From the NCBI RefSeq assembly GCF_000004825.1, contig NW_008805064.1:124001-188000 (forward strand): a stretch of DNA of 64,000 nt, given 5' to 3'. The DNA comes from Heterostelium album PN500 (lineage: Eukaryota > Evosea > Eumycetozoa > Acytosteliales > Acytosteliaceae). The notes under the pieces were generated by a model. It was not told the DNA's origin and made no database searches. It saw only the letters and a list, made by a program, of their open reading frames with translations. Position 1 is the stretch's first letter, and each line of letters opens with the position of its first letter. Below are positions 11,840 through 49,878 of the stretch, in pieces. Both the position numbers and the translations under genes were made by a program.

Positions 11840-14800
11840 ATGGTGACGAAAGAAGAAGCGATTCAGTTCAGAATCAATAAACTGAAACAAAAGATCGTTA
11901 ATATTCAGAAAGAAATCGCTGCAATCAGATCAGAGTATAAAATAAAATTGAAAGACAGCACCTCGCGTGAAAAAGCACTACTCTATGCCGAGCGAAGATC
12001 GTTTGTTCGCGCAAAGCGTCAAAAGTTGGAGATCTACACTGAGAGAATAAAGACTCTCCAAGCAGCACCTAAACCAGTGGCAGCACCTAAACCAGTAGCA
12101 GCACCTAAACCAGTAAAACAACCTGCAACAGCAGCACCTCCACCAGCTGTAGTCGTTAAGAAGCCAGCGGCAGTAAAACAACCTGCACCAGCTGCACCTG
12201 TACCTGTTGTGGTTAAGAAACCAGCCAAAGTAAAACAACCTGCACCAGCTGCACCAGCTGCCCCAGTTCCTGTCGCTATAGCTGTTCCTGTACCAGTTGT
12301 AATTCCAAAGCCATTCTCAGTTAAGCTCCAAGACTTGGATTCATATTCAGCCGGTCAGTTGCAAAAGGAGTTTGAATCGATGTGCCGCCAGATCAGAGAT
12401 TGTCAGGATGACATCATTAAAGTCCAAAAGCAAGTAGCCAAGTTGAGGATTCAGCAACCACAGAGCAGAACCAAACAGCAATGGAAGGATTTGGAAATTA
12501 GTTCAACAAGTAATTTGAAGAATCATTTAATATTACTATGTAATGAGAAGACTAAATACTTGAAAGTAATAGTAATGAGAAGTAAAGGTCAAGTTGTCTC
12601 CAACACCGTTATTAAGCATTCAACTCCAATCGTTTCTCCTCCTCCACCAGTAAAGAAATCGGCTCCAACAGTTTCTCCTCCTTATAAAAAAAAAAAACCT
12701 CCTCCACCAACCACTCCAATAGTACATAGATCAGCTCAAAAGGAGATTGATGAAATTAGTATATTAGGAATGAATGTAAGCATTTTAAATTATTATTACT
12801 TTGCTCACAGAGAGAACTAAACTAATTTTACATCTCTTTCACTACTGTTAGTCTTTTGAGGTGATCGATATCTTTTTAAGATGTAGACCGTCAAGAGTTG
12901 GATTCCTTTCACATCGTCTCACTCAATTTGAAAATAAGGACGATCGAGCACACATGGAGTATGTCGGTGACATTCTACCGTTGATGTTTGAAGAGTTGAG
13001 GTCTCAGATTACCCAGGAGTTGGAGAGTAGAGGTGCATTCGTTATGGAGAATGGACAGTTTAACTATGACAAGCTGGAGAGAACTTCGTGTTTGATTGGA
13101 AATATCGACTTGCCAAAGAACGATACTGGAGGAATCATCTTGTCGCTCGACTACAAATATACTAAACCCGAGAATGAATTGAATATAAAGGATCTTCTGT
13201 TACTCAGGCTGCGTGACAAATCGGTATTCGGTCTCATTGTTAATCAGAAGCCGAGTATGCTTCAAAAACAACAGAGTATTCTCATTCATTTGATGGACAA
13301 TCAATCGGATGCACCTCATACCAGTGAGTTCATCGATGATCTCTATCAAGAAAAGAGGAAAGGAGGCAAGGTAAATATCTCGTGTGTCAGCAACTTTACT
13401 ACTTTCGAGAGGGAGCTGTTTGCAGTCAGAGAGTTTACCAAACACACACTGGCACCACTCATTCTCGCACCCAAACTATACTCTATCACTCAGACACCGA
13501 TCTCTCCTGCCTATCAAATGCCGGGATTGGTTGGAACCATCTTACGTAATCAATTAAATCAATCGCAATTCAATGCAATTTCAGAGTCATTGGCAAGTCG
13601 ACATGTATCATTAATTCAAGGTAAGTAACTTTAAACTAAATTGGATCTACTTTAAGTATTGATTTTATTGTAATTAAATATAGGTCCACCTGGAACTGGT
13701 AAAACCAAAACAATCATTAGTTTATTGGCTATTTTCAATGCTATTTTGCCCATGACTGCAAAGATTTTGGTTTGTGCACCATCCAATGTTGCAGTTGATG
13801 AAGTTGGTTTAAGAGTTTTGAAAGATGGTCTTCTCGATAATTCCGGAGGCAGAACCGATCCATCCATTGCTAGAATCGGAAGATTAGAAGCCATCAACGA
13901 GAATATCCATCAGATATGTGTCAGTAAACTTCAGACTCCTGATTCCAAGAAAATAATGATAAAGAGATCAAGAATCATTTTATCGACACTTTCTGGATCA
14001 GGTTCAATGATCTTGGCGCAACCCGAATTCTATCCTTCGGTCGTAATTGTCGATGAGTCCACACAGTCGTGTGAACCATCCACTCTCATCCCACTGCTCA
14101 GAAACCCATACTCCAAGGTCATTCTTATCGGTGATCCCAAGCAGTTGCCACCAACTGTATTCTCTACAATTTCCAGTCGATTCAACTATGATGTTTCGCT
14201 CTTTGAGAGACTCGCCAAGTATTTCCCAGTGCACATGCTCGACACCCAGTATCGTATGCATCCAAAGATTTCGAAATTCCCATCCAACCAATTCTACAGC
14301 GCCAAACTCAAGGACGGTGAGAATGTCGTTAAATATAACAACTCGTTCTATACCGATCCCAAATATGGACCGATCAATTTCTATCATATTCCAGACTCAC
14401 AAGAGCTTAAGACAATTGGAAAATCAATCAAGAACAGTCTGGAAATCAGATTGGTATTTACGTTGTTGAAGAAACTCGTACAGGATCATCCAGAGGTCAA
14501 GTCGATGAGTGTCGGTATTATCACACCTTACAAGTTGCAAAAGAAGGAACTCCAAGATGCCAAGAGTCATTTCAATGAGAAGATGGATGTTGTTGTGAAT
14601 ACTGTCGATGGATTCCAAGGTGCTGAAAAGGATATCATTATCTTTTCATGTGTTCGAAGTGAAAAGATTGGATTCCTCAAGGACACTCGTCGTATCAATG
14701 TTGGTATCACTCGTGCAAGAAGAGCACTCTACATTGTCGGTTCATCAAAGTTGCTGGAACAAGATCCAAATTGGGGTGCATATCTTCGTAACATCAAATC

Positions 14801-16421
14801 GACCGTCAAGAAATTCATCTCGATCGATTCAAATGGAATCAGTGTATTAGAGGAGCAAGTTAGACAGTTTGATATTGCACATCCCGATGATTTGATCGAT
14901 ACAAGTCAAGAGGATTTCAAAGAACTTGAAGACTTGTTTGATGATCGTGATGATAGAATTTTCAAGGATATCGGTGATGACGATGATGATGACGATGGAG
15001 ATAGTGAGGATGAGGAGGAAGAAGAAGAAGTAGCAGAAATGAAGAAAGTGGAACAAACTATTGAACCAATATCAACAACAATGAATTGGTTAACCAATAG
15101 ACTGAAATCAATGTCATTATGGAAGTCTACCGATCCATCGATACCGCTGAAGATAAGGGAGATTGAGCAAAATCTTGGAGAGTACAATCAACTTCGCGAA
15201 TTTAGAATCAATGCTACTATTAGAGCGAAAATAGTGGATACCAGAAAGTTGATTTGGAGAGTGCTGAGAGATACTCTTAGGAAGTTAAAGATTGAAAATT
15301 CGAAATACGATGTTTCTGAACTGTTGGTTACACACAACAACAACGACGACATGTCAAATCAGCTGATTGCACTCTACATAGGAAAGACCTGTCCAAACGA
15401 AACAATCAAGAAAAAGAGTTTCCAATCACTGGAAAACCATTGTCAAAAGGCATTCCCAGGTTCCAAGCTGAAGCCATACGGATCGTTTGTCAATGGAGTG
15501 CAAACTGCCTCAAGTGATATCGATGTATGTTTCTCAGTCGTTGGTGTTCCAACCGATACCAATTCAAAACTCCTTCATCTTATGAAAAGAGTTGCCATTA
15601 GTATAAAGAAAAGTAAGTATCCTCTTCCTGCTACAATATCACAATTCCTAACTTATCAATTCATTTATATTTCAGATACTTCATATGAATTGGAAAAGAT
15701 TATTAGATTTTCAAGAGTACCGATTCTTAGATTCAAGGATATTGGAAGTGATATTTCTTTCGATATGTGTTTCAATAATTCTTTGCCAGTTGGAAATTCG
15801 TTGTTGATCAAAGAATATACTATGATTGACGCTCGTGCTAAAGTATTGATGTTGTTGATCAAGTATTGGGCATCGAGAAAGGATATCAATGACGCATCAA
15901 TGGGAACACTTTCATCTTATAGCTGGCTGAATATGGTTATTTTCTATCTCCAATGTGTCAGTCCACCTGTGCTGCCTTGTCTCCAATCAACACTGACAAA
16001 CACCACACCAAAGAGTTCTATCATTAGCAGTTCGGAGGATGGTTGGAAATTCCTTAATTCACTAACACTCAATTTCAAGAGTACCAACACCATGTCATTG
16101 TTCCAGCTGTTTAGTGGATTCTTCTCATTTTACTCGAGATTCGATTTCGCAAACCTCTTGATTACAATCAAACGAGGCTGTTTGACCAACATTAGAATGG
16201 CAACTAAACTCTATTTGGATCACAACCGAAAGCAAAATATCTGTATCGAAGATCCATTCAATCCACAACAGAATCCAGCAGCTTCAGTTGGTAGAAATGC
16301 ATTCGATGTCATTCTCTACGAGCTTAAATCGGCCGAGCAAAAACTTTCCTCACTGAAATCCAATGAAACAGTCGATGTATTCATGGAGTCAACCTTGATG
16401 AAATTCTGTAGAACTAAATAA
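11840..16421 (+). CDS. SF1 helicase (Sen1/UPF1-like) fused to TUT4/7-Cid1-like nucleotidyltransferase, copy 1
   Basis: Exons 11840-12775, 12852-13620, 13684-15612 and 15676-16421 encode 1459 residues. The N terminus is a coiled coil, then Pro/Ala/Lys-rich repeats, then a second coiled coil. Helicase motifs: Q-like NQSQFNAI, Walker A GPPGTGKTKT (about 569-578, codon split by intron 2), Walker B VIVDEST (about 688), GDPKQLPPTV (717), QYRMHP (755), DGFQGAEKD (877) and GITRARRAL (908). The upstream DILPLMFEELRSQI stretch is typical of Sen1/senataxin-type proteins. An acidic linker lies at about 995-1020. The nucleotidyltransferase has GSFVNG and SSDID (about 1168-1181) and the third Asp in FDMCFNN (1239). 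The PAP-associated segment DINDASMGTLSSYS strongly resembles TUTases. Expected activities are RNA/DNA unwinding and 3' uridylation or adenylation; the biological role is inferred only. The third intron is 63 bp and open in frame. Confidence 0.9.
15613..15675 (+). other. 63-nt in-frame intron inside the nucleotidyltransferase domain
   Basis: GTAAGTATCC donor and TTTCAG acceptor. The length is divisible by three and the intron has no stop, so retention would add 21 residues between the catalytic SDID motif and the third catalytic Asp. The paralogue has its intron at exactly the same codon (20730-20807), but 78 bp long and opening with an in-frame stop (GTAAGTAAA), which supports splicing as the default. 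Confidence 0.8.
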
Positions 16422-17065
16422 ACAAAACAAAAACAATTGCCAATATGTTACAATATTTTCAAGTAGAAATAAAGTAAACATGTTTCGCTATTTTGTTTTA
16501 ATAAATAAAATTTATTCTTTGTATTCATGTAAAATTGTAAATCATTGCCAAATAAGTAAATTAGCAAAAAAATGTGCTCTATTACTACAATTTACTCTAA
16601 TTGGTCATCGTTCAACTTTAAAAACCATAATGCATGTGCAAGAGCCGATGTTCAGAATACAATGCAACGGGAACCTCAGGTGTTTTTCAGCGAAATTTGA
16701 ATGAAAATTGATGAAAAATAGTGTGTTTACCAAAGAATCATCTAGATTGGCCCGTAAAGAATTTAAAAAAATTGTCAAATTTTAAAAAATTAATTAAAAC
16801 TAGGAGTAAAAACGGGGTGTTGTTAAGAATCTCCTCATAAATATATTTAAAATATATTTTAACTTTGTAAATATAAATCAGATTTGAGACCGATTTTTTT
16901 TTCTGTGTCAAGTTACTTTTTGATGATGCTCACAGCAAATGGATCATAAAAAATAGAAATTGCGAAAATTAAATATTTAAGTTTTGTGATAACAAAGCAA
17001 TATTTTTTAATTGCTTTTTCTAAAGTAGATAACATTTCATTAAGAATATTATTATATTAAGATAG
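16422..17065. other. Intergenic between the tandem helicase-TUTase genes
   Basis: About 640 bp of AT-rich DNA that serves as 3' region of copy 1 and promoter of copy 2. A 74-codon open frame at 16480-16704 has no recognisable domain and is not called. No repeat flanks mark the duplication boundary. Confidence 0.5.
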
Positions 17066-20000
17066 ATGTTAAACAAAGAAGAAATTCGAATTAAAATCAA
17101 GTTTTGCGGAAAACAGATTCAAAAAACTCAGGAGGAAATTCATCTGATTAAATCACAGTATAAAAAGGAAATCGATTCATGCTATGATGGTAAAAGAAAA
17201 ATCCTCCTTTATGAGGCGAGAAAATCCGATCTACGACCAATCCGTGAGAAGTTGGAGATGTATGAGAAGCAAAGAAAGTATCTCATGAGTGCTCAGCTAA
17301 ACTCACCTGCACCAGCACCAACACTAGAACCAATAACACTACTAGTTCAACCACCAGTATCCATTGTCCAACAACCAATCGAAGTTAAACCCCAAAACTT
17401 AGATTCCTTTTCACCCTCTCAGTTACAAAAGGAGTTTGAATCTATTTGTCGGCAGATTAGAGATTGTAATAAAGACATTTTTAAAATCAAAGAAGAAGTT
17501 TCAGATTTGAAGAGTCAGCAACCATACAGTAGGACAAAAAAACAATGGAAGGCTTTAGTAACAAGTTCGACAAGTGATTTGAACAAATCTTTGATTATAC
17601 TATCAAGCCAGAAATCAATAGTCCGTCAAGCAATAGAGAGGAGGAAAACTACAGTGCAAATTGTGTCAAATAAGGTTATTAAACCAATATTTGTTACTCC
17701 TACTACTCCTCCTCTCACTCCAAAGAATCCTACAGTTGTTACTCCTACTACTCCTCCTCGCACTCCAAAGAATGCAACTTTTACACTTACCCCTCCTCCT
17801 CCATCTGGAAAGAAACCACCTCCAAATGGAAATAACTCTTCTCAAAAAGAGATTGATTATGTTAACATTTTAGGAAAGAGTGTAGGTTAGAAACAATATA
17901 TTTATTACTTTATTCAGTTAATTAATAATTGATTTAATTTATCAATTTAGGTTGATGACGTTTTTGATATATTTCTAGGTTGCATACCTTCAAGAGTAGG
18001 ATTCCTTTCACATCCCCTTAACAAATTTGAAAACAAAGACGATCGAACTTTAAATGAATATATCCTAGATATTATACCATTGATGTTTGAAGAGTTGAGA
18101 GCCCAGATTACCAAGGAGTTGGAGAGTAGAGGTGCAGTCGTTATGGAAAGTGGACATTATAACTTCGACCATCTGGCGAAGACATCATGTTTAATTGGAG
18201 ATATCGATATGCCAAAGAGAGCCGGGGAAGGTGTACACTTATATTTGGACTACCCATATACTAGATACGAGAATCAATTGAATATCAAAGACATGGTGCT
18301 GCTTAGACTGCCAGGTCGATCAGTGTTTGGCCAAGTTATAGGTGCAAATCTATTCTCGAAAACGAAGGAACAGAGGGTTATTATTCGTATCATGGATAAT
18401 CAATCGTATGCACCTCATACTAGTGAATTCATCGATGCCCTCTACCAGACTAGAAAAGATAAAGGCAAGGTAAATCTTTCATATGTCAACAACTTTACTA
18501 CTTTTGAGAGAGAGTTGAATGCCGTCAGAGGATTTACGCAACATGCATTAGCGCCACTCATTCTCGCTCCTAAACTATACAGTATATTTAAGACACCAAT
18601 CTCCCCGATCTATGTAATGCCGACAATAGTTGGAAGCTTGTTGAGTAGTCAACTGAATTCATCACAATTCCGTGCTATTTCACAGTCATTGGCTAGTCCT
18701 CAAATATCATTGATCCAAGGTAATTGAAATTTAATTAATTCTCTTCTAAAACACTAATTGTTTTTATGTGATAATTAAATATAAATTATTGAATTTTATT
18801 TTTCTGAATGTAAATATTTAAATATAGGTCCACCTGGAACTGGTAAAACCAAAACAATCATTAGTTTATTGGCTATTTTCAATACCATATTGAAACCAAC
18901 AGAACAGATTCTGGTTTGTGCTCCATCCAATGTTGCAGTTGATGAAGTTGGTTTAAGAGTTTTGAAAGATGGTCTTCTCGATAACTCCGGAGGCAGAACC
19001 GATCCATCCATTGCTAGAATCGGAAGATTAGAAGCTATCAACGAGAATATCCATCAGATATGTGTTAGCAAACATCGTCGTGCCAGTTACAAGAAAAAAA
19101 TGATACAATCATCAAGAATCATTTTATCCACTCTTTCAGGTGCAGGTTCACAATTGATAATCCATTCAGGATTTCGCCCGTCGGTGGTTATTGTGGATGA
19201 GTCTACCCAGTCTTGTGAATCATCTACTCTCATTCCACTGCTCAGAAACCCGAACTCAAAGATCATCTTGATCGGTGATCCCAAGCAGTTGCCACCAACA
19301 GTATTCTCTGGTATTTCCAGTCGATTCAACTATGATGTTTCGCTCTTTGAGAGACTCGCCAAGTATTTCCCAGTGCATATGCTCGACACCCAGTATCGTA
19401 TGCACCCAAAGATTTCGAAATTCCCATCTCTCCAATTCTACAACTCCAAACTCAAGGACGGTGAGAATGTAGCCAAGTATCACAACTCATTCTATACCGA
19501 TCCTAAGTATGGACCGATCAATTTCTACCACATTCCAGACTCACAGGAACTGAAAACCATTGGAAACTCAATCATGAATGATTTGGAAATCAGATTGGTA
19601 TTTACGTTGTTGAAGAAACTCGTACAGGATCATCCAGAGGTCAAGTCGATGAGTGTCGGTATTATCACACCTTACAAGTTGCAAAAGAAAGTACTCCAAG
19701 ATGCCAAGAATCATTTCAATGAGAAGATGGATGTTGTTGTGAATACTGTCGATGGATTCCAAGGTGCCGAAAAGGATATCATTATCTTTTCATGTGTTCG
19801 AAGTGAAAAGATTGGATTCCTCAAGGACACTCGTCGTATCAATGTCGGTATCACTCGTGCAAGAAGAGCACTCTACATTGTTGGTTCGGCTAAACTCTTG
19901 GAACAAGATCCAAATTGGGGTGCATATCTCCGTGACATCAAATCGACTACCAAGAGATTAGTGTCAATCGATTCAAATGGAATCAGAATGTTAGAAGAGC

Positions 20001-21553
20001 AAGTTAGACAGTTTGATATTGCAAATCCCGATGATTTGATCGATACAAGTCAAGAGGATTTCAAGGAACTTGAAGACTTCTTTGATGACAATGATGAAAG
20101 AATTTTAAAGGATATCGGTGATGACGATGATGGTGAGGATGATAGCGAGGAGGAGGAAGAAGAAGAAGTAGTGGGAAATAATGAAGTATCAATGGATATG
20201 ATAGTTAGTAAACTAAAATCAATGACATTATGGAAGAATTCTACCGATCCATCGATACCACTGAAGATTAAGGAAATCGAACAATATCTTGGAGAGTACA
20301 ACCAACTTCGTGAAATTAGAATCAATTCTACCATAAGAGCTCAAATAGTAGAAACCAGGAAGTCTATTTGGACAGGGTTGAGAGATACTTTGAAGAAGTT
20401 AAAGATCGAAAATTCAAAACACGATGTTTCTGATTTGGAATTTATCGCACCCAACGACAACGACTACATGTCAAGACAACTACTTTCATTATATAGAGAA
20501 AAGAAGTGTCCAAATGAAGATATCAAGAAAAAGAGCCTCCTATCACTGGAAAACCATTGTCAAAAGGCATTCCCAGGTTCCATATTGAAGCCATACGGAT
20601 CGTTTGTCAATGGAGTGCAAACTGCATCAAGTGATATCGATTTATGTTTCTCAGTCGTTGGTGTTTCAACTGATACCAATGATAAACTCTTCCATCTTAT
20701 GAAAAGGGTTGCCTTGAGAATAAAGAAAAGTAAGTAAAAAATGATTGTAGTACCAAAATCAATTCAATTTCAATCGAAACTAAACTAAATTTTATCTTTC
20801 TATATAGATACTTCCTATCAGTTGGAGAAGATTATTAGATTTGCGAGAGTACCGATTATTAAATTCAAGGATATTGAAAATGAAATATCATTTGATATGT
20901 GTTTCAATAACTCGATGCCAGTTGGTAATTCGTTGTTGATCAAAGAATATACTATGATTGACGTTCGTGCTAAAGTATTGATGCTGTTGATCAAGTATTG
21001 GGCATCGAGAAAGGATATCAATGACGCATCAATGGGAACACTTTCATCTTACAGTTGGTTACTTATGGTTATTTTCTATCTCCAATCTATCAATCCACCC
21101 GTGTTGCCAAATCTCCAGTCAACCCTCATAAACACAGCACCAAAGAATGCTATCATTAGCAGTTCGGAGGACCGTTGGTTATTCCTTAGTTCACAAGCAC
21201 TCAATTTCAAGAGTACCAACACCATGTCATTGTTCCAGCTGTTTAGTGGATTCTTCTCATTTTACTCGAGATTCGATTTCTCAAACCTCTTGATTACAAT
21301 CAAACAAGGCTGTTTAACCAACATTAGAATGGCAACCAAAATCTTTTTGGACAATAACGGAAAGCAAAATATCTGTATCGAGGATCCATTCACACCACAA
21401 AATAATCCAGCAGCTTCAGTTGGTAGAAATGCATTCGATGTCATTCTTTACGAGCTTAAATCGGCTGAGCAAAAGCTTTCAGCACTCAAACCAAATGAAA
21501 CAGTCGATGTATTCATGGAGTCAACCTTGATGAAATTCTGTAGTGCTAAATAA
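17066..21553 (+). CDS. SF1 helicase fused to TUT4/7-Cid1-like nucleotidyltransferase, copy 2
   Basis: Exons 17066-17881, 17951-18719, 18828-20729 and 20808-21553 encode 1410 residues. Intron positions and phases match copy 1 exactly, and exon 2 (769 bp) and exon 4 (746 bp) have the same lengths in both. All helicase motifs (GPPGTGKTKT, VIVDEST, GDPKQLPPTV, QYRMHP, DGFQGAEKD, GITRARRAL), the acidic linker and the transferase motifs (GSFVNG, SSDID, FDMCFNN, DINDASMGTLSSYS) are present, so both copies look catalytically intact. The N-terminal region is shorter and has TTPP-type repeats instead of the Ala-Pro-Lys repeats of copy 1. Long stretches of the helicase core are nearly identical at the nucleotide level between copies, including synonymous sites, while exon 1 has diverged. 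Start chosen as the first ATG giving the conserved coiled coil (KEEIRIKIK versus KEEAIQFRINK). Confidence 0.9.
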
Positions 21554-21685
21554 ACAAACATTACCAGATTACCAATCTGTATCAATTAGAGAATAAAGTA
21601 AAATAAAATAGAATATTAAAGAATAAAAATACATGATTAAAAAAATAAATTAAAATTATATGTTTTAACTAATAATATTTTACTA

Positions 21686-23200
21686 TTATCTTATAAATGT
21701 TTTAAATGTTGTAAAACCAAATTGATTTTTGAATATACCACTGTCTGCTATGATCTGTTGAAATTCAGTGTCTTTGGTTTTGAGTAGCGATATACTGGTG
21801 TTTGATTTTAGGAATAATTGGATTGCTTCACCCATTTTGGTGGTATTCTGATAGTTTTTGTTAAAATTGTCTAGATAGAGTTGCTTGATCGATTGATTCT
21901 TTGAAAGACTGATAAACAATGAAGTAAGGTCATAGTTTATATTGTAGATATTCAGAGTAGCAATATTACAACCGCTATCCTCTAGAAAAGTAAAGTCATA
22001 GTGTCTCGATGCCAGCTGATAGTCCAGTCGTTTAATACCTTCGAATACCACCCGATTGGTAATACTGAAACTACGATTACACTTAACGAGTTGAAGCGAC
22101 GATTGAAAGTTTGGTTCTTCTTCGGGCGTTGGGAATGCAACATGTTGGAAATCCGAGACAAACAACTTTAGAACTTTCTGACAATTGAATCGAACCGTTC
22201 GATCTTTCAATTGATTATGTATACTTAGTTTGGTGATAGTCTGGTTACTGACGAGTGTATCCGAGAGTTTCATCAGCTCACTGGTCATTCCCAAACTCAT
22301 AAACTCTAGCTTCAACACTCGCAGTTGTTTCATGCGGTTGATGAATGAAAAGTCAATGTCAGCGACACTCGTCATATAAAGGAAAACCTGAAGGAACAAG
22401 CTAGAGAGATGCGTAAGATTTATCAGGTCGTTGATATACTGTCGATTGATAACCAACTGTGCGCTGCTATCGGACAATAAAATATTTGCTTTTCTCAAGT
22501 TGCTCTGTGCCGATTGAGACGCCAGAAATGAATGTACAAACTGCAGCTGATCTTCACTGACGTCTCTAATCTGGATGGAATCAACCACCATTCCATTATT
22601 GACCAGTTCATTGAGATACAGTCGACTAGCCTCTTGATCGAGCTCCTCGAATTGGATGATAAGTCTGTTCGCCATTGAAAGATATGGTTTCACTCTTGTG
22701 AATGACGAATAGAATTGCTTGGTACCCTTGAGCGACACTCGGAGATTATTTACGATGCCTCGCTGAAGCGCGTCTATCAGGACATCATAGAGACGTTGGT
22801 ATCGCTCCATTGTTTTCTGGTCGATCAGTTCATCACGAAATCCGCTATCCTCAATCATAAAATTATGATCTTGAAAGAAGTTGACAGTGAAATTCGTTGG
22901 ATACTTCAATTGCAGCTCGTTAAGTTGTGTTGCCACTACTTGTTTGCCGGCATAGCCCCTCGGTCGTAGCAGGTTGTTGACGTCCAACCTGAACACCCTA
23001 CAATACTTGTAGTAGAGTTGATCGACAATGTCGGACCACTTCTTACAAACCAAAGCCAACGATAACTTTATAGCAAGTGGGAACAGAGTGTCGTTCAGTT
23101 CCAGTCCAAAGTAACTGTCACCCCAGTTCTTAAAAGATGTATGTGAAGCTCTAAATATTCTATCTAGAATTTGTTGTTGAATATAATATGATAAGATCAT
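21686..23200 (-). CDS. F-box-like/leucine-rich-type protein, dictyostelid family
   Basis: Single exon. I place the start at 23200 (MILSYYIQQQILDRIF), giving 504 residues; 15 further codons upstream encode a low-complexity hydrophobic run over a T-rich stretch and are probably 5' UTR. Residues 1-60 resemble an F-box (LDRIFRASHTSF, then SLALVCKKWSDIV). The rest has regularly spaced Leu/Ile (for example TLNIYNINYDLTSLF, KQLYLDNFN), as in LRR-type substrate-binding domains. It is clearly related to the protein at 48331-49878 in layout and N-terminal motif. F-box proteins recruit targets to SCF ubiquitin ligases, but the F-box here is weak, so this role is an inference. It converges on helicase-TUTase copy 2 with about 130 bp between stops. 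Confidence 0.75.
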   Translation of the reverse strand: MILSYYIQQQILDRIFRASHTSFKNWGDSYFGLELNDTLFPLAIKLSLALVCKKWSDIVDQLYYKYCRVFRLDVNNLLRPRGYAGKQVVATQLNELQLKYPTNFTVNFFQDHNFMIEDSGFRDELIDQKTMERYQRLYDVLIDALQRGIVNNLRVSLKGTKQFYSSFTRVKPYLSMANRLIIQFEELDQEASRLYLNELVNNGMVVDSIQIRDVSEDQLQFVHSFLASQSAQSNLRKANILLSDSSAQLVINRQYINDLINLTHLSSLFLQVFLYMTSVADIDFSFINRMKQLRVLKLEFMSLGMTSELMKLSDTLVSNQTITKLSIHNQLKDRTVRFNCQKVLKLFVSDFQHVAFPTPEEEPNFQSSLQLVKCNRSFSITNRVVFEGIKRLDYQLASRHYDFTFLEDSGCNIATLNIYNINYDLTSLFISLSKNQSIKQLYLDNFNKNYQNTTKMGEAIQLFLKSNTSISLLKTKDTEFQQIIADSGIFKNQFGFTTFKTFIR

Positions 23201-23782
23201 CTTTTGAGATACTATTAGAAATAAAAAAAAAATAATATAACACATTAATTAAATTCCAATTTAGATATTTTGCAAAAATTTTGTAGATCAGTTTCTTTTT
23301 TTTTTAATTAAATTATTTGAAATAATAAACAAAATGAATATTAAGTAATTTTAATGGAAATGATCGAATTTTTACTTTATATTCATTTTATTCGAAGTTA
23401 TTTAACAAGAATTTATATAATAAAATAAAATGTGTTTACAACAGAACAATTTTTAGTTTAATTAATCAAGATTTGTTAAATTTCATTCTATTCTTTTTAA
23501 ACTATGAACACATTTAAAATTGAATTGGCACAGATAAAAAAAAAGATTGATTGTAAATCAACAAAAGAAATAGATAAATTATATAAGTTACACACAAATT
23601 CAAAAATTTTGTCGTTAAAAAAAAAAAAAAAAAGAGCGCCAAATGTGTCAGCATTCCTCATTTTACCATTCCACAATTAATATTTTTTCAATAAAATCAA
23701 ACCATCATTTTTTAATAAAAGATTAATATTTATATCTATTATTATAATAAATATTTACAAAAATATATTTTGGTAAAAGAGA
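23201..23782. other. Divergent promoter region
   Basis: About 580 bp between the F-box-like gene and the coiled-coil gene. It is AT-rich with a 19-nt poly-A run and contains the GCGCCAAA element annotated separately. No open frame or RNA gene was seen. Confidence 0.5.
23636..23643 (-). promoter_or_regulatory. E2F-type site
   Basis: TTTGGCGC on the minus strand (GCGCCAAA on plus) is a perfect match to the E2F consensus and sits about 140 bp upstream of the ATG of the coiled-coil gene at 23783. In an AT-rich intergenic background such a GC-rich octamer stands out. Dictyostelids have RB and E2F/DP homologues, so cell-cycle control of the downstream gene is plausible but not shown. Confidence 0.4.
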
Positions 23783-35672: not shown

Positions 35673-38600
35673 TTAGAACTTTCTTTTTAATTTAACAGCC
35701 ATGTCTATAAGCTTTCTTCCTTTAAGTTGTTTCTTTATAATTACAACTGCTACAGTAATTAATATTAAACCACCGACAACAGAGCAAACAACAATCACTG
35801 GAACTTTCCAATTATTCTTTTTAGAGTCACATTGTTCTGGGTCACCAGTTAACAACAATGAGAAGTTTGGATCTAAAATACATTGGCTGTCAAAGTACGG
35901 AACTTGAATTGCTGTCAATAATGTGTATTTTGTTTGATCTGTTGAGTTACTTTTGACGATTTGATACAATGGATCGGTTTCTTCATCCAACAATATAACG
36001 TTACTCTTTGTGATACGTCCATTCACAAATAGATATCTTGCAAATCTAGCCGATAGGATTGATGTTCCAATTTGAACTTGGTACCATGATGCTGAGTTGC
36101 TTGTTGTTCCATCAGATAATACTTTTGGTGTTGAACAAATATCTTGATTTTGAAGTAGTTGTGCTGAATAGATAACTTCAAGTGTACTTAGTTGATCTTT
36201 GAATGGCCAACTGCTGATTGTAACTTGGAATTTGACTGAATTGGCATCCATTTGAATTGTCTCTCCTGCAAATACAATCGACGTTGATATGTTGAAAATA
36301 TTGACATTCAATTGGATTGTTGTTGAACTGTTTGCAATCTGACCTGTGTAAATATAATATGTGGTGTTTGATTGAATCAATGTCCAATCGATATCAGAAA
36401 CATTCACAAGTTTCAACGTATTTCCATTCGAATCGATCTCTCGAATATATTGGATGTCAATGTTGAACTTTGACGTTTCAACACTGTCGTTCTTTGTTAC
36501 GAGTACAGCACCACCATTGTTGTTCACTAAAGGTGGTGGTGGCAATGTTTGTGTGGATTTCATTGAACAATCCCATAGATAGAATCCAGGACGACATTGG
36601 CATTGTCCATTGTCATGATTACACACTCCGTTTCCAGAACATGTTGGATTTGCACACTCATAGTATTGCCTATAAAAGAATAAATAGGAGGTGGTAGTGC
36701 CAACATTATTTGAGACTGCGATTGGTAGTGCATCCTTTCCACCAACTGGAGTACCTGTGAATGAACAGATCAATTGTTGTGGACTGAGATATACAATATA
36801 ATCACATCCAGCTCCACCAATTGTGATTTGAGAAGTATTCATAAAATGATCACCAAATATTGTTACATTCCCTGTTTCACCTTGTTTCATATTCGTTTGA
36901 TACCTATTTATAGTTGGTGCTAAAGTAAGAATAGCGTTAATCATTTGATAAAATATGATTTTAAACCTGTCATTTTCAATATTAATACTTACAATATAAA
37001 TTATTTGTATAGTTGATCTGATTGGTGTTAAGACCATTAATAATAAAATACATTGATGTGGTGTTTATACCTGCTGCAACACGTAATACAATTGGAATTT
37101 TGGTCTCTAATACAGAGTACAATGGAACTAAACCCATTACTTGTATTGAGTTAATATTTTGATTGAAGTCGATATCAAAGATTGCATATCCATCCTGGTA
37201 GTTGGATGCGTTCGTTGTATATCCTACAATAGTTGGAGACATGATTGGATTGTACACAAGGAAATAAATGTTGCTTAGGGCATTGGTATTGGTGTCCATT
37301 AAGGAACCACTGGTGAGACTTAAGGTAATCGCAGTATTTACAACGCTGCATCCATTCGTTCCGTAGTAGTACGGTGCAACCAAAGAATTTTTCGATGGTC
37401 CATACATGTTATAGAAACTTCCACCAGAGACCATTCGAACACCTTGAGTAAGCACTCTGGTTGGGAATATCTTTGATACCAAATTGTATTGGCTTGCTTC
37501 GGTGAGTGCACCGAAATACACTGTTTGGTCGCTTAGCTTTGGAACAATATAGGTGAGAAAAGTCGTAAGATTTACATTGAGAGTGAATAGGGCAAAGTTT
37601 GGTGGATTGTTGGTTACGCCTGAAAGGTAAAAGGGTGCTCGATACGATTTGATTTCCATTCCATCTACCGATATGATTAAAGGAAACGGTGATAGAACAT
37701 CACTACTCAAAGTACAAGACAATTGATCACCACTTAATTGAACGCTTCTACACTGAACATTCCCAATTGACATCGAAATTAAGTTTATATCATTTCCAAA
37801 ACCTTGACCTCTTACGACCAATATTTCATCTTTTTGGAACTTTGGAGTAAAACCAATAACGAGAGGTGCTTTTTTTTAATATAATAATAATGATGGTTAG
37901 GTTAGTATTCTTCATAGTAAATTATTAATATAGACTTACAATTATATTGAAATATTGATATATATGTATTTTGTGTATTGGTAATACATTTCAATTTATA
38001 TAAACCTGTACCTGGAGGTACTTGAAAAGTTCCATTCTTCACTCTAGGAAGGTTGATTATTTGTGTCAAATCATTCCATTTCAAAATTTGACATGTATCT
38101 AGAAACTGACTCTGAGGATTGACATAGAAGATCTCCAATTGTCCTCCATCGGAAGAAATAGAAGTTTTCTGAACGATCTTTATACTGAGATTATCTTCTA
38201 CACAAAGTGCTTTATAAGAGTTAGTTCGTGGAACAGAAATGAATTGCAGAGTACCATCGCCTTGCAGCTGTGCTGCAACTGCATTGTTGCTCTGTCCAAT
38301 CACTGGGTGACCGTCACTCCAAGGGCAAAAGGTGTAACACTGATCGTTTTGTGCTGTGTACATCGGCATCGTAGAGAAAGGACCGCTCGAATCATATGAG
38401 TATCCAGTTCCATTAAGCGATGCCGCTTGAATACTAATCCAGAAAGGATCGTTGAGCGCATTCGTCTCTAGCTCTGCTCGAATAAAATCCGCTTCCTGTT
38501 TGCTTGTGATTGTTGCGAGGAATCCACCACCCTGACACTGTGTCAACGCTCCATTATAATTGTAATCGAGACCTAAATATCTGTAGGAGTAACCGGTTAC

Positions 38601-38696
38601 ATTCCATGCTGGAAACAGTATGTCGGTGTCACCAACACAAATATTAATCAAAAAAACAATTAAACAAATAAATGTAACAGATAAGCTGGTAAACAT
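35673..38696 (-). CDS. C-type lectin/IPT/EGF transmembrane protein, tandem copy A
   Basis: Exons 38696-37940, 37868-36993 and 36919-35673 encode 959 residues (phase 1 introns). Signal peptide (FICLIVFLINICVG), then a C-type-lectin-like domain: ATITSKQEAD, WISIQ, CPWSDGHP, KALCVE. Exon 2 opens an IPT/TIG domain (SPLVIGFTPKFQKDEILVV). Exon 3 opens a second IPT (GETGNVTIFGDHF) and then an EGF-like module (NPTCSGNGVCNHDNGQCQCR). A long stalk is followed by a single membrane span (VPVIVVCSVVGGLILITVAV) and a short basic tail (KKQLKGRKL). The layout resembles dictyostelid ComC/Tgr-type adhesion and signalling proteins. Exon 3 is almost identical to that of copy B downstream of the EGF module. A role in cell-cell recognition or ligand binding is inferred. 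Confidence 0.88.
35680..36655 (-). repeat. Near-identical 3' tract of surface-protein copy A (matches 38926-39901)
   Basis: Offset to the partner is 3246 bp. I count about a dozen single-base differences over roughly 975 bp by eye. The tract runs from the stop-codon region through the transmembrane segment and stalk to the EGF module, then identity drops abruptly at about 36655 within the same exon. Confidence 0.85.
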
Positions 38697-38918
38697 TATC
38701 TAATTTAAAAAAAATATATAATATGATCAAAATTTTTGCGAGCCTAAAAAGATTTCTTTATCTTTTTTTTTTTTAAATAAAAACGTAAATCTTAAAAAAT
38801 CTTCTTTATCGTGATTAAAATAATCTTCCATGTTATATATATTAAAAAAAAATTAAAGATTTTAGTCAATTTTTAAATCATTTCTTCTCTTTTAGTATTA
38901 CATGTATTTTTTATTTAT

Positions 38919-41900
38919 TTAAAGTTTTCTTTTTAATTTCACAGCCATGTCTATAAGCTTTCTTCCTTTAAGTTGTTTCTTTATAATTACAACTGCTACA
39001 GTAATTAATAATAAACCACCGACAACAGAGCAAACAACGATCACTGGAACTTTCCAATTATTCTTTTTAGAGTCACATTGTTCTGGGTCACCAGTTAACA
39101 ACAATGAGAAGTTTGGATCTAAAATACATTGGCTGTCAAAGTATGGAACTTGAATTGCTGTCAACAATGTGTATTTTGTTTGATCTGTTGAGTTACTTTT
39201 GACGATTTGATACAATGGATCGGTTTCTTCATCCAACAATATAACGTTACTCTTTGTGATACGGCCATTCACAAATAGATATCTTGCAAATCGAGCCGAT
39301 AGGATTGATGTTCCAATTTGAACTTGGTACCATGATGCTGAGTTGCTTGTTGTTCCATCAGATAATACTTTTGGTGTTGAACAAATATCTTGATTTTGAA
39401 CTAATTGTGCTGAATAGATAACTTCAAGTGTACTTAGTTGATCTTTGAATGGCCAACTGCTGATTGTAACTTGGAATTTGACTGAATTGGCATCCATTTG
39501 AATTGTCTCTCCTGCAAATACAATCGACGTTGATGTGTTGAAAATATTGACATTCAATTGGATTGTTGTTGAACTGTTTGCAATCTGACCTGTGTAAATA
39601 TAATATGTGGTGTTTGATTGAATCAATGTCCAATCGATATCAGAAACATTCACAAGTTTCAAAGTATTTCCATTCGAATCGATCTCTCGAATATATTGGA
39701 TGTCAATGTTGAACTTTGACGTTTCAACACTGTCGTTCTTTGTTACGAGTACAGCACCACCATTGTTGTTCACTAAAGGTGGTGGTGGCAATGTTTGTGT
39801 GGATTTCATTGAACAATCCCATAGATAGAATCCAGGACGACATTGGCATTGTCCATTGTCATGATTACACACTCCGTTTCCAGAACATGTTGGATTTGCA
39901 CATTCGAAATACTGCTTATAATAGAAAATATAGGCAGTTACAGCTCCAACATTGGTCGACACTCTGATTGGTAGTGCATCTTTTCCACCCAAAGGAATTC
40001 CATTGAAAAGACAAACCAATGTTTGTGAATCAACGAAATTTAATGCATTACATAAATAATTACCGATCGACACCATCGAAGTATTCATAAAATGATTTCC
40101 AAAGATAGTTACATTTCCAGATTCACCTTGTTTTTGTATAGATTGATAACTATTTATAATTGGTTCTGTAAATAAAAAGTTAGTTCAGATAATATCCTAA
40201 TTTTTACAAATTAGATTTTAAATACTTACTATAAAAATTATTTTTATAAAAAATAGTATTTGTTTGTTGTCCATTAAGTGTCAAATATACATAATTCATA
40301 AATATTCCAGCTTTTACAGATAATATTAACTGATTTTCCGTGTATATTGGTTGTCCATAAATAGCGTCGGGAGAAAATCCATTTAATGTGATTGTTTTAA
40401 ATTCTTCATTTAAAAAATAATTCAACACTATAGTTCCATCTTGATAGTTGGAAGCATTTGTTGTATAATCGATAATTCTTGCTGTGGTGAGAGAGTAATA
40501 TTGAATAAAAAAGTTATTGGTAACTATGGTATTATCGGTTCCGCTCAATGAAGCATCGGTAGTATTAAATAAGACAGGACCGGGCGAATCGAGAATGAGC
40601 GAAGTTGCGTTTTCTTTAAAATAAGGCGAGGCTCTTACATCTTTATTTGGACCATACGAATAGAAGAAAGCTCCACTGAGCACCTTAAGACCTTCAATAA
40701 CTGCGGAATTGGGGACTATCTTTTGCAAAAGATTGAATTGATTTAGTGATGTAACCACTCCAAAAAACTTTCCATCGTCTATATAACTTGAACTCGATAT
40801 AAAATCGGTAAATTTCGTAATGTTGGCCTGTAAGTTGAAGATTGAAAAGTCAGGTGGTTCAAAGGTTACTGTATCCAAATAGACTGGTGCTCTTGTTGAA
40901 GTTACTTGAATACCATCGACCATAATATTGATTGGATATGGAGAAACAATATTATCATTCAAGGTACAGGTAATTTGATCTCCTTTTAAAAATAAAATAT
41001 TGCTACACGCCACTTTACTGAACATCTCTGATAATGTATTTCCAAAAACCACAGAAATTAATGAAGGATCTACACCGAAATTTACACCTCTAATAGTGAC
41101 AACCTCTCCTTTATTAAACTTTGGTGTAAAACCAATAATTTGAGGTGCTATTTTGTTTGTTTATAATAACAAAAATATTAATAAACAACATTTTTGTAAT
41201 AATACTATAATTTATATTTACCTTTATATTGAAATATTCCTGAGTATGATTGAGGTGGCGAATCTTGTGTAAACACTGTAAAGTTGTATATCCAAACACC
41301 AGTACCAGGTGGAATTCTAAAAAATAGATTCAGTTGATCGATTGCAAACGTATTTCTGGGATTATTGTAGCTTTGTAAAGTACCTCCCACCGTTGTTATA
41401 TTTGCAGTGTTGGTAACAACAATTATTAAACTTCCTCCGGTGGTTGGCACCTGACTTCTTTGTAGGATTCTCTTTTTATTGCTTGGGAGTTCTAAACATA
41501 GCACAGGCAGTTGAGTAGTGAATGGTAATGCCCTGAAACTGATTTGGCCATTGGTAATCTGTGCAGCGACAGCATAGAGCGATGCATTACCAAAATTGAT
41601 AGGTTCGCCGGGTCCCCATGGACAATAGGTAATACATGTATCGTTCTGGACATCGTACATTGGCTGTAGATCCAGTGATGTTCCCGATTCGTAGGTGTAT
41701 CCATTTCCATTGGAGCTTAGCGATTGAATTCCAATCCAGAAAAGTGTGTTGGTAAAATTGTTCGAGTTGGCAACGATATAATCAGCTTCCTTTTTGTTTG
41801 ACAACGAGGCTATTGCGCCAATTTGTAAACACATATTCAAAGATATATCATATGAAACAGGTGCATCTTTAAGAACATATGAATATCCGGATACATTCCA

Positions 41901-41984
41901 TGCTGGAATCTGTGTATCAGACAAACATTGTTGAACCAGAAATATTCCAAATATAATGAATAATATTAAACTTTTATTTATCAT
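38919..41984 (-). CDS. C-type lectin/IPT/EGF transmembrane protein, tandem copy B
   Basis: Exons 41984-41222, 41147-40230 and 40165-38919 encode 975 residues with the same three-exon plan as copy A; exon 3 is exactly 1247 bp in both. Signal peptide (LFIIFGIFLVQQCLSD), then a C-type-lectin-like domain (SLSNKKEADYIV, FWIGIQ, CPWGPGEP, PVLCLE). IPT domain from APQIIGFTPKFNKGEVV, second IPT (GESGNVTIFGNHF), EGF-like module, stalk, membrane span and basic tail as in copy A. Exons 1-2 have diverged strongly from copy A, while the EGF-to-tail part is nearly identical. Same head-to-tail orientation, with about 220 bp between the genes. Likely a cell-surface receptor or adhesion protein. Confidence 0.88.
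38926..39901 (-). repeat. Near-identical 3' tract of surface-protein copy B (matches 35680-36655)
   Basis: Partner of the copy A tract. One difference changes the stalk codon Ile to Thr (FNISTS versus FNTSTS); most others are silent or conservative. The sharp upstream boundary inside the exon is the signature expected of gene conversion. Confidence 0.85.
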
Positions 41985-42257
41985 TTTTGAAATATTTGTA
42001 TATAAATAAGTATATAAAAATAATTTTTAACATTAAAGGTTGAGATTGTATGATTTCGTTGATAAAAAAATGTAAAAAATAACCACTCACAAATAAGATT
42101 CCTTTTCTTGATTTTTTTTTTTAAAAAAACATAGATGATCAGTGTCCACTGATTTCCAATAAAAATAAAATTTTTTATAACGTTATATCTAAACTTATCA
42201 GATTTATTCTTTAAAGTGAAGAGAATGTTTTCATTTAATAAATATTTTATTTTATTT

Positions 42258-47813: not shown

Positions 47814-48330
47814 TTTCTATATATTTTAAGTTGATTATTTATCTTATTTCTTTAGAAAAAGGTAATATTAGTTTCTGATTATTATTTGTTGCTTTTTATT
47901 TTTATGTATTTCTAATTTTAATTATATATATTTACGATGTGAAGAAAAACACTTAATAGTAAAAGCATCTTCACAGAAAGTAGAAAGTGTGTGAATCTAT
48001 CTTATGTGTGTGTGTGTGTTCGTCCAATTACATTTTTTGTTCTCTATTCTCAAAGAGAATATTCTTCAGATTGACATACTGTTGAGATTAAACAAAACCA
48101 TTAAAAAAAGGTGTACCCCTAATTTGTTCTCTTTAAAAATTAATTAAAGATTTATGAAAAGAAGTTTTGTGATATAACACCTTAAAAAAATCTCTTGTCA
48201 AATTTTTGAAAAAAAACAAAAAACTTTTGCAAATTGAAAAGATTAAAAAAAAAATAAAAAGGTAGAATAATCTAAAAAGAAGAAGATTCGAAGTTGATCA
48301 ATTTTTTTATTTTCTCATTAAATTTAATTG
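47814..48330. other. Divergent promoter region
   Basis: About 515 bp between the dehydrogenase and the second F-box-like gene. It has a short GT repeat near 48006-48020 and several poly-A runs close to the F-box-like ATG. Nothing else was seen. Confidence 0.5.
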
Positions 48331-49878
48331 ATGATGGCTTCGCTAACAGATTATTGTCAACGTTACCTTTTGGAGATCATTTTCAAAAGTTCGCATTCTA
48401 TTTTCAAAGAATGGTCTTCTCAATATAAGAAAGATGTCGATATGACATTGTCATCAAAGATCTACCTATCTTTGGTGTGTAAGAGGTGGTATGAACACGT
48501 GGAGTTTCTCTATTACAAATATCATATGTTTATAGATTTGGCTATATTATGTATGCCAACGATCACTCCAAAGCCAATATACTTTGTGAATATGAAAGAG
48601 ATCGTTCAGCAGGGACTCAAGTATCCAACCAATATCTTTGTAAAGTTTGAGCGCTCTCTTCCAAAGGGTGGAACAGAATTCCATAGAAAGCTACTCGATC
48701 GACTCATTAGCCTTCTCGAGAATGACATGGTCTTGACGCTGAGTATCATTTTCAATGGATTCGGTGATTCCATTGATACTCTTGGCCGATTGGTTCCTCA
48801 TCTCGCTCGTGCTCACCGATTGATCATACATATCCGGTTTATGAAACTCAACTATTTCGACGAGTTTCACGATGATCCCGTTGGAACCTGGCGAGGAAAA
48901 AGAGCTCACAAAAGAAAATACAACCAAGTTGATTATAATAGAATGGTTGCTCCACATCTACAGTTCCTAAATAGTTTGAAGAATATCGATACTCTGTACA
49001 TCGGGGATTTAGAAATCAGTCAGGAATTAGATATTTTGCAATCGGTCTATGATAATCACTCGCACTCACTGCAATCTATTCATCTTTTACTTCGTGGACA
49101 TTGCTGGCAGTACCTGACCGATCAAAAATCAATCAGTAAGATGATCACACTCAAACATCTAAAGAATCTTTCGCTCCGGTTTCAACTCTCTGATATCTCT
49201 GTGGACATAGACTTTGGCTTCATTAACCAACTACCACAACTACGAACACTCTCACTGAGTTTCAATGAGATGATGCTTTACTGTTTAGAGAGTAGTAACC
49301 TTTTAGGAATATATAATACACTAGAGTCAAACAAAACGATCAAAAGACTATCGATTGGAAATCACATTCCAAGCATTAGGTACAATCATTCCGTGATCAA
49401 GAGATTGAAAGTTTATCACTTTGGATCAGTAGAACTACCTGGAAGCATAGATTCGAGTGCACTCGAATATCTGGAGTGTAACTTTATATTTCTTACTATT
49501 AAAAATAGAACAGTGTTTTCGAATTTAACTCATTTAGTTTGGCAACTCCCAGATAATCTTCCCAATTCTGATACTCTGTTTTTAGTTGATCCATATTGCA
49601 AGATTCATACTCTATCAATTTACAACGATACAAACATAGCTCACAATTATAAATTTCTATTCGAAATGATAACAAGCAACAAAACAATTAAAAGACTGTA
49701 CATAGATAGTTTACTTTCATCTAAAAAAGACAACATCAATCTCGATTACTTTTTGAGAACAAACACTACAATCAGAGAGTTCACAACCAAAGACAAAATG
49801 ATTCAAAAGAATTTAAAAAGTGGAATATTCACAACCATTTTAAAAGATGAAAACAATCATATAACTTATAAAAGATAA
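48331..49878 (+). CDS. F-box-like/leucine-rich-type protein, dictyostelid family
   Basis: Single exon, 515 residues from the first ATG of the MMASLTDYCQRYLLEIIF start; the frame also opens with a TTG just upstream that I do not use. The N terminus (YLLEIIFKSSHSIFKEW, IYLSLVCKRWYEHVEFLYYK) matches the gene at 21686-23200 and looks like a diverged F-box. The remaining chain has Leu/Ile-rich periodicity (LKHLKNLSLRFQL, LPQLRTLSLSFNEM), consistent with LRR-like repeats. Dictyostelid genomes carry many such F-box-like paralogues. SCF-dependent ubiquitination is the likely but unproven role. It converges on the acyl-CoA synthetase gene with about 100 bp between stops. Confidence 0.78.
   Translation: MMASLTDYCQRYLLEIIFKSSHSIFKEWSSQYKKDVDMTLSSKIYLSLVCKRWYEHVEFLYYKYHMFIDLAILCMPTITPKPIYFVNMKEIVQQGLKYPTNIFVKFERSLPKGGTEFHRKLLDRLISLLENDMVLTLSIIFNGFGDSIDTLGRLVPHLARAHRLIIHIRFMKLNYFDEFHDDPVGTWRGKRAHKRKYNQVDYNRMVAPHLQFLNSLKNIDTLYIGDLEISQELDILQSVYDNHSHSLQSIHLLLRGHCWQYLTDQKSISKMITLKHLKNLSLRFQLSDISVDIDFGFINQLPQLRTLSLSFNEMMLYCLESSNLLGIYNTLESNKTIKRLSIGNHIPSIRYNHSVIKRLKVYHFGSVELPGSIDSSALEYLECNFIFLTIKNRTVFSNLTHLVWQLPDNLPNSDTLFLVDPYCKIHTLSIYNDTNIAHNYKFLFEMITSNKTIKRLYIDSLLSSKKDNINLDYFLRTNTTIREFTTKDKMIQKNLKSGIFTTILKDENNHITYKR

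Follow-up and report, generated by a model that had tools for sequence, protein, structure and literature searches.

Two genes of Heterostelium album PN500, lying head to tail within a stretch of 64,000 nucleotides (contig NW_008805064.1, positions 124,001 to 188,000; hereafter the window, to which all coordinates refer), each encode a superfamily 1 (SF1) helicase fused in one frame to a Cid1-type terminal nucleotidyltransferase (NTase). Gene A (11840-16421) and gene B (17066-21553) are separated by a spacer of 644 bases and have spliced products of 1459 and 1410 aa, respectively. Helicase and RNA-tailing activities usually reside on separate partner proteins; here they share one chain, and the fusion is confirmed in both copies. 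We tentatively favor the reading that each gene encodes a single-chain "clear and tail" enzyme of RNA surveillance, though we stop short of calling it probable.

Results

Both proteins have the same domain order, which is a helical and proline-rich N-terminus, the SF1 helicase, an acidic linker and the NTase. Pfam matches above the gathering scores were obtained in proteins A and B, respectively, for AAA_12 (4.3e-61 and 2e-61), AAA_11 (4.2e-50 and 1e-51), MTPAP-like_central (2.5e-23 and 1.3e-25) and PAP_assoc (2.8e-11 and 8.7e-11). A preliminary description of this DNA had read each gene as a spliced frame giving one polypeptide with an SF1 helicase, a Cid1-type transferase and intact motifs. 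Both spliced frames were recovered with these properties, and the four transferase strings that it had listed (GSFVNG, SSDID, FDMCFNN and DASMGTLSSYS) were found in both genes.

The helicase-NTase join falls inside exon 3 in each gene. Read unspliced, gene A stays open for 911 codons between 13686 and its stop at 16419 (915 aa from stop to stop), and the longest open run was 225 in 500 single-base shuffles of 13684-16421. The join has 0 in-frame stops in gene A (14791-15460) and 0 in gene B (19933-20602), as compared with 15 and 25 in the other two forward frames of A and 17 and 25 in those of B. GC content is 0.38 at the join of A (14791-15460) and 0.37 at that of B (19930-20600), with 0.41 in the helicase part and 0.37 in the NTase part of gene A, versus 0.23 upstream of A, 0.25 between the genes, 0.15 downstream of B and 0.14-0.30 in the introns. 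A plus-strand scan of genes A and B found AATAAA in neither join, an absence that is weak evidence because coding sequence here has few such sites anyway. In gene A the hexamer occurs three times within exon 1 (11876, 11941 and 12046) and once overlapping the stop (16417); in gene B it is found at 17468, 20719 and 21549, the last overlapping the stop; and past the stops at 16468, 16500 and 16504 after A and at 21592 and onward after B. That two separate genes have been taken for one is scarcely credible. Such an artefact could be entertained in that single-transcript status is read from DNA alone, but it is contradicted by the open frame, the scarcity of stops, the GC content and the missing AATAAA at a join that the two copies share. 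We reject it and infer that one transcript per gene would span both domains.

The seven helicase motifs searched are intact in A and B as GPPGTGKT, ILVCAPSNVAVD, VIVDESTQ, GDPKQLPPT, QYRMHP, NTVDGFQGAE and RRINVGITRAR, which we take to be motifs I, Ia, II, III, IV, V and VI. In a PDB sequence search, Sen1 was the best match of both helicases (E 1e-74 for A and 1.5e-78 for B). Bit scores were 243-268 for Sen1, 187-193 for UPF1/NAM7, 144-151 for SMUBP2, 107-110 for DNA2, 107-109 for ZNFX1 and 61-88 for Aquarius, with the best Sen1 chain at 256 and 268 for A and B. The helicase core of A shares 40-41% identity with the Sen1 sequences of Chaetomium and yeast. A tree was built from 30 of 31 rows, one having been dropped for a stop (ZNFX1, MOV10 and Hrr1 are absent). 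In it, A and B join the two Sen1 sequences with support of 100/99, and the alternatives grouping A and B with UPF1 (p-AU 0.0115, approximately unbiased test) or with SMUBP2 (p 6.7e-5) were rejected.

Prokaryotic relatives served as controls for the ranking. An archaeal relative scored 304 bits with UPF1, 230 with SMUBP2, 210 with Sen1 and 138 with ZNFX1; a Bacteroidales relative scored 215 with SMUBP2, 192 with UPF1 and 183 with Sen1; and a Caballeronia relative scored 112 with NAM7, 89 with SMUBP2 and 83 with Sen1. Since all three top-rank UPF1/NAM7 or SMUBP2 and never Sen1, placing Sen1 first, as A and B do, is not a general property of such helicases. With the prokaryotic models of NCBIfam, an IGHMBP2-family helicase was best for two helicase-bearing pieces, under the cut-off. 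As judged by sequence scores and the tree, we show that the helicase is a Sen1-class, Upf1-like SF1 enzyme. Sen1-class motors translocate 5′ to 3′, and the best PDB match carries the name 5′-3′ RNA helicase-like protein; by analogy with the Sen1 family, the A and B motors would do the same on RNA. The match to Hrr1 drawn in the preliminary description finds no support here. Hrr1 is given as the fission-yeast orthologue of ZNFX-1 in the available part of PMC9276528, and ZNFX1 falls far behind the best Sen1 chain in bit score, with the core joining Sen1 in the tree that lacks ZNFX1 and Hrr1.

In the NTase, the GS...DxD signature, the third catalytic Asp and PAP_assoc are present in A and B, leaving the catalytic Asp triad intact. 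The third Asp aligns with that of TUT7 and TUT4, and the URT1 and GLD2 chains in PDB have Ala at this place, probably as inactivated crystal constructs. The best PDB match was TUT7 for A (2.1e-42) and TUT4 for B (1.3e-43), with the NTase of A sharing 29-33% identity with TUT7, GLD2, URT1 and TUT4. A tree limited to six rows (Cid12, Cid1 and Trf4 are absent) placed A and B with GLD2 at 70/71 under a long-branch warning and did not reject grouping with TUT4/7 (p 0.169) or URT1 (p 0.236). TUT4/7 proteins carry zinc knuckles of the CCHC type along with an additional transferase module that is inactive. A search of proteins A and B for CCHC knuckles gave 0 matches and no C..C pair, and Pfam reported one matched stretch per transferase domain per protein, which corresponds to one transferase module. 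At the place of the uracil-selecting His, TUT7, TUT4 and URT1 have H, GLD2 has N, protein A has Gln1410 and protein B has Asn1361, so the GLD2-type Asn is found in B and not in A. On these three points we drop the "TUT4/7-like" family label of the preliminary description. The kinship itself is left partly standing, as the best PDB matches speak for it and the tree neither favors nor rejects it.

Replacing the corresponding residue of Cid1, H336, with Ala or Asn switches the enzyme from uridylation to poly(A) polymerase activity according to the available part of PMC4357723, and the His to Ala conversion is likewise described in that of PMC4605311. Because the uracil-His is lost in both A and B and such Cid1 mutants are poly(A) polymerases, we predict that the NTase adds adenylate-rich, mixed or relaxed tails.

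Proteins A and B are 74% identical. The ratio of nonsynonymous to synonymous substitution (dN/dS; Nei-Gojobori, own script) was obtained by region: N-terminus, 0.43; region preceding the first RecA domain, 0.24; whole motor, 0.22 (motor 1, 0.29; motor 2, 0.12, the lowest); linker, 0.53; NTase, 0.29. By this measure both copies are shown to be under constraint. Synonymous divergence (dS) is about 0.9-1.0 in exons 1-2 and falls unevenly to about 0.3 in exons 3-4. Two windows of 60 codons, with starts at codons 823 and 853, reach 97-98% base identity, a 66-base exact match between the copies begins ten bases upstream of exon 3, and exact matches reach 106 bases. From the end of intron 2 onward, 13674-16421 and 18818-21553, which hold the enzymatic two-thirds, thus show the pattern of gene conversion, and the dN/dS ratios of single regions are rough because of it. 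Elsewhere in the window, two tandem ComC-like genes (35676-42026, minus strand; ComC_SSD was found in the one scanned) are 89% identical over 419 columns in their C-terminal parts and 38% over 313 columns in their N-terminal parts, again a patchy pattern of conversion.

Each gene has four exons, with GT-AG introns in the same three places (Table 1). Intron 3 of gene A, which begins GTAAGT and ends TTTCAG, would add 21 residues if left unspliced. It is very likely an in-frame intron, because the gene B intron at that position breaks the frame and TUT7, TUT4, URT1 and GLD2 lack a 21-residue insert; in the alignment of these four PDB transferases, GLD2 has about five extra residues there. Pfam reported no match in the N-termini (aa 1-312 of A and aa 1-272 of B). 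Tandem repeats at 12061-12255 (A) and 17691-17801 (B), with units of 18, 57 and 45 bases, form Pro-rich N-terminal spacers that differ between the copies.

Table 1. Features of genes A and B, in window coordinates
Gene	Feature	Position	Strand	Content
A	Exon 1	11840..12775	+	aa 1-312: two basic helical-looking segments separated by Pro-rich repeats, followed by a Pro-rich spacer
A	Exon 2	12852..13620	+	Precedes first RecA domain; 3′ end within Walker A glycine codon (G569)
A	Exon 3	13684..15612	+	Helicase motifs I-VI, acidic linker, NTase GS and first two catalytic Asp; single open frame
A	Motif VI	14688-14720	+	In exon 3
A	Acidic linker	14769..15158	+	aa 931-1060, helicase-NTase spacer; in frame in gene B too
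A	NTase GS and first two catalytic Asp	15480-15524	+	In exon 3
A	Intron 3	15613..15675	+	63 nt, in frame; position matches gene B intron 3
A	Exon 4	15676..16421	+	Third catalytic Asp1241 (15762-15764), PAP_assoc, nucleotide recognition motif
A	Gln1410	16269-16271	+	Occupies uracil-His place in nucleotide recognition motif, exon 4
B	Exon 1	17066..17881	+	aa 1-272: N-terminus, Pro-rich repeats
B	Exon 2	17951..18719	+	Precedes first RecA domain
B	Exon 3	18828..20729	+	Helicase motifs, acidic linker, NTase GS and first two catalytic Asp; single open frame
B	Motif VI	19832-19864	+	In exon 3
B	NTase GS and first two catalytic Asp	20597-20641	+	In exon 3
B	Exon 4	20808..21553	+	Third catalytic Asp1192 (20894-20896), PAP_assoc, nucleotide recognition motif
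B	Asn1361	21401-21403	+	In nucleotide recognition motif, exon 4

Relatives were sought in viral and prokaryotic contig collections with pattern-based scans, in which an absence is weak evidence because few peptide patterns are used. The viral contigs yielded no relative of gene A exon 3, the NTase alignment or the helicase alignment, and the NTase alignment found nothing in the prokaryotic contigs. The helicase alignment found at least 416 prokaryotic relatives, and among the best 80 that were kept, the helicase was present at 80/80 loci and an NTase at 0/80 (flanks up to 4 kb). A viral origin or a prokaryotic fusion thus received no support from these scans. No description of such a helicase-NTase fusion was found in the open-access literature of PubMed Central, by titles and starts of abstracts and with subscription literature outside the scope, and the available part of PMC3710099 has none. 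Following gene B on the opposite strand is an open reading frame (ORF) of 520 aa without a Pfam match (21689-23248, minus strand), which is 31% identical over 531 columns to a 516-aa ORF at 48328-49875 (plus strand). A repetitive Thr- and Gly-containing ORF at 56858-59062 (minus strand) has a CBM49 carbohydrate-binding domain near its end. This domain, the ComC supersandwich domain and the base composition all point toward a dictyostelid source.

Discussion

In the mechanism that we tentatively propose, the Sen1-class motor would load on single-stranded RNA and run 5′ to 3′ toward the 3′ end, stripping RNA structure and bound proteins as it goes. Given the polarity of Sen1-class motors, it would head for the very end that the NTase extends. 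The C-terminal NTase, tethered by the acidic linker, would append a short run of untemplated nucleotides, most likely rich in adenylate or mixed in sequence rather than oligo(U). This tail may flag aberrant or non-coding RNA for decay, and the task of Sen1 plus TRAMP in yeast would then be carried by one protein. We infer the ATP preference, the functional coupling, the RNA targets and the fate of the tail.

Known systems resemble this arrangement in part, and the earlier analogy with helicases and transferases that work as partners is sound. Sen1/senataxin shares the helicase core and the searched core motifs and groups with A and B in the tree; A and B differ in adding a C-terminal NTase, in an N-terminus of 272-312 aa with no Pfam match and in motif II. 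Cid1-type transferases (GLD2/TENT2, URT1, TUT4/7 and Cid1) share GS...DxD, the third Asp and PAP_assoc, whereas the NTase of A and B is fused behind a helicase and has Q or N where the uridylyltransferases have the uracil-His. In the yeast Nrd1-Nab3-Sen1 complex plus TRAMP (Trf4-Air2-Mtr4), the function of a Sen1 helicase is likewise coupled to that of a non-canonical poly(A) polymerase, but through an Nrd1-Trf4 contact instead of a fusion, and Trf4 belongs to a distant transferase class. Mtr4 of TRAMP is from another helicase superfamily and runs 3′ to 5′, unlike the Sen1-class motor. The accessible text of PMC4186968 describes the Sen1 complex as terminating transcription and TRAMP as poly(A)-tailing the same non-coding RNAs. 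The TRAMP helicase has been proposed to control processivity (PMC7988573, part available), and proposals in reviews have helicases making blocked 3′ ends accessible to tailing enzymes (PMC6232586, part available).

Several points weigh against the clear-and-tail mechanism, which is read from sequence. On the helicase side, motif II of A and B, DESTQ, matches that of UPF1 and departs from the DEAAQ and DEACQ of the two Sen1 sequences. In the helicase tree, SMUBP2 and five prokaryotic rows have long end branches, two long rows are joined together, several rows including B have an odd letter make-up, and the branch leading to A and B is long (1.52). With no Pfam match in the N-terminus, nothing there supports the transcription role of Sen1. 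On the transferase side, the best PDB matches are uridylyltransferases, a preference for UTP may depend on residues other than the His, and the Gln of A was not found among the changes of the Cid1 His reported in the available parts of the papers. The NTase also lies far from the Trf4 class of TRAMP, as PDB entry 3nyb, which we take to be Trf4, scored 36 and 41 bits and TUT4/7 about 150. An AlphaFold prediction of gene A read through 13686-16418 unspliced, with two gene B exon rows, had a mean predicted local distance difference test score (pLDDT) of 35.5 and is unusable as a model.

Three other functions can be considered. Each gene could encode a one-chain counterpart of Hrr1 plus Cid12 in the complex of an RNA-dependent RNA polymerase (RdRP), or of the worm ZNFX-1/RDE-3 loop, and tail target RNA for RdRP copying into small RNAs. 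The fission yeast complex (RDRC; Hrr1, Cid12 and Rdp1) does pair an SF1 helicase with a Cid-type transferase, and loss of the uracil-His would fit an adenylating or mixed-tail enzyme. A role in RNA interference by small-RNA amplification is thus possible by analogy, and the more so because the D. discoideum RdRPs RrpA-C each have a helicase domain along with the RdRP domain; RrpC is also required there for 5′ spreading of small RNAs (both from the available part of PMC3661229). However, RDRC is built of separate chains with a ZNFX1-class helicase, the A and B helicases are Sen1-class by score rank and join Sen1 in the tree without ZNFX1, and no gene for an RdRP, Argonaute or Dicer came to light in the window, in which only ten neighboring ORFs were scanned. 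On balance we regard this as unlikely, while giving it some weight.

The genes might instead act in the manner of MOV10 with TUT4/7, the helicase clearing retroelement or foreign RNA and the transferase adding U. There too a helicase clears RNA for a tailing enzyme, and in the accessible text of PMC6232586 the removal of ORF1p by MOV10 is proposed to let TUT4/7 uridylate LINE-1 RNA. The best PDB matches of the NTase and the unrejected TUT4/7 grouping agree with such a mode. It is nevertheless improbable, since that system consists of separate chains and uridylates, both copies here lack the uracil-His and the CCHC knuckles, and the helicase is Sen1-class, in a tree without MOV10 and with MOV10 itself not compared. 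It is also conceivable, if rather unlikely, that the domains share a chain without catalytic coupling and that the helicase mainly tethers or localizes the NTase on RNA, or the reverse. Of the regions measured, the linker is under the weakest constraint, as expected of a simple tether; against this, neither copy has lost any of the searched helicase motifs, and the lowest dN/dS is that of motor 2, a value made rough by gene conversion.

RNA silencing and surveillance both involve cooperation between helicases and tailing enzymes, and the hand-over of a 3′ end from motor to NTase is hard to study while their contacts are brief. A covalent helicase-NTase pair fixes both ratio and geometry, so that the hand-over becomes testable with one purified protein, and the Gln of A and the Asn of B provide, side by side, a natural test of the uracil-His rule. 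It is possible, if doubtful, that an amoeba lineage merged a helicase-plus-tailing partnership into one 3′-running, RNA-tailing motor and kept two diverging copies (Gln and Asn), perhaps with different tail letters. If the fusion is conserved in dictyostelids, the pairing of helicase and tailing enzyme would be old, and useful enough to have been fused.

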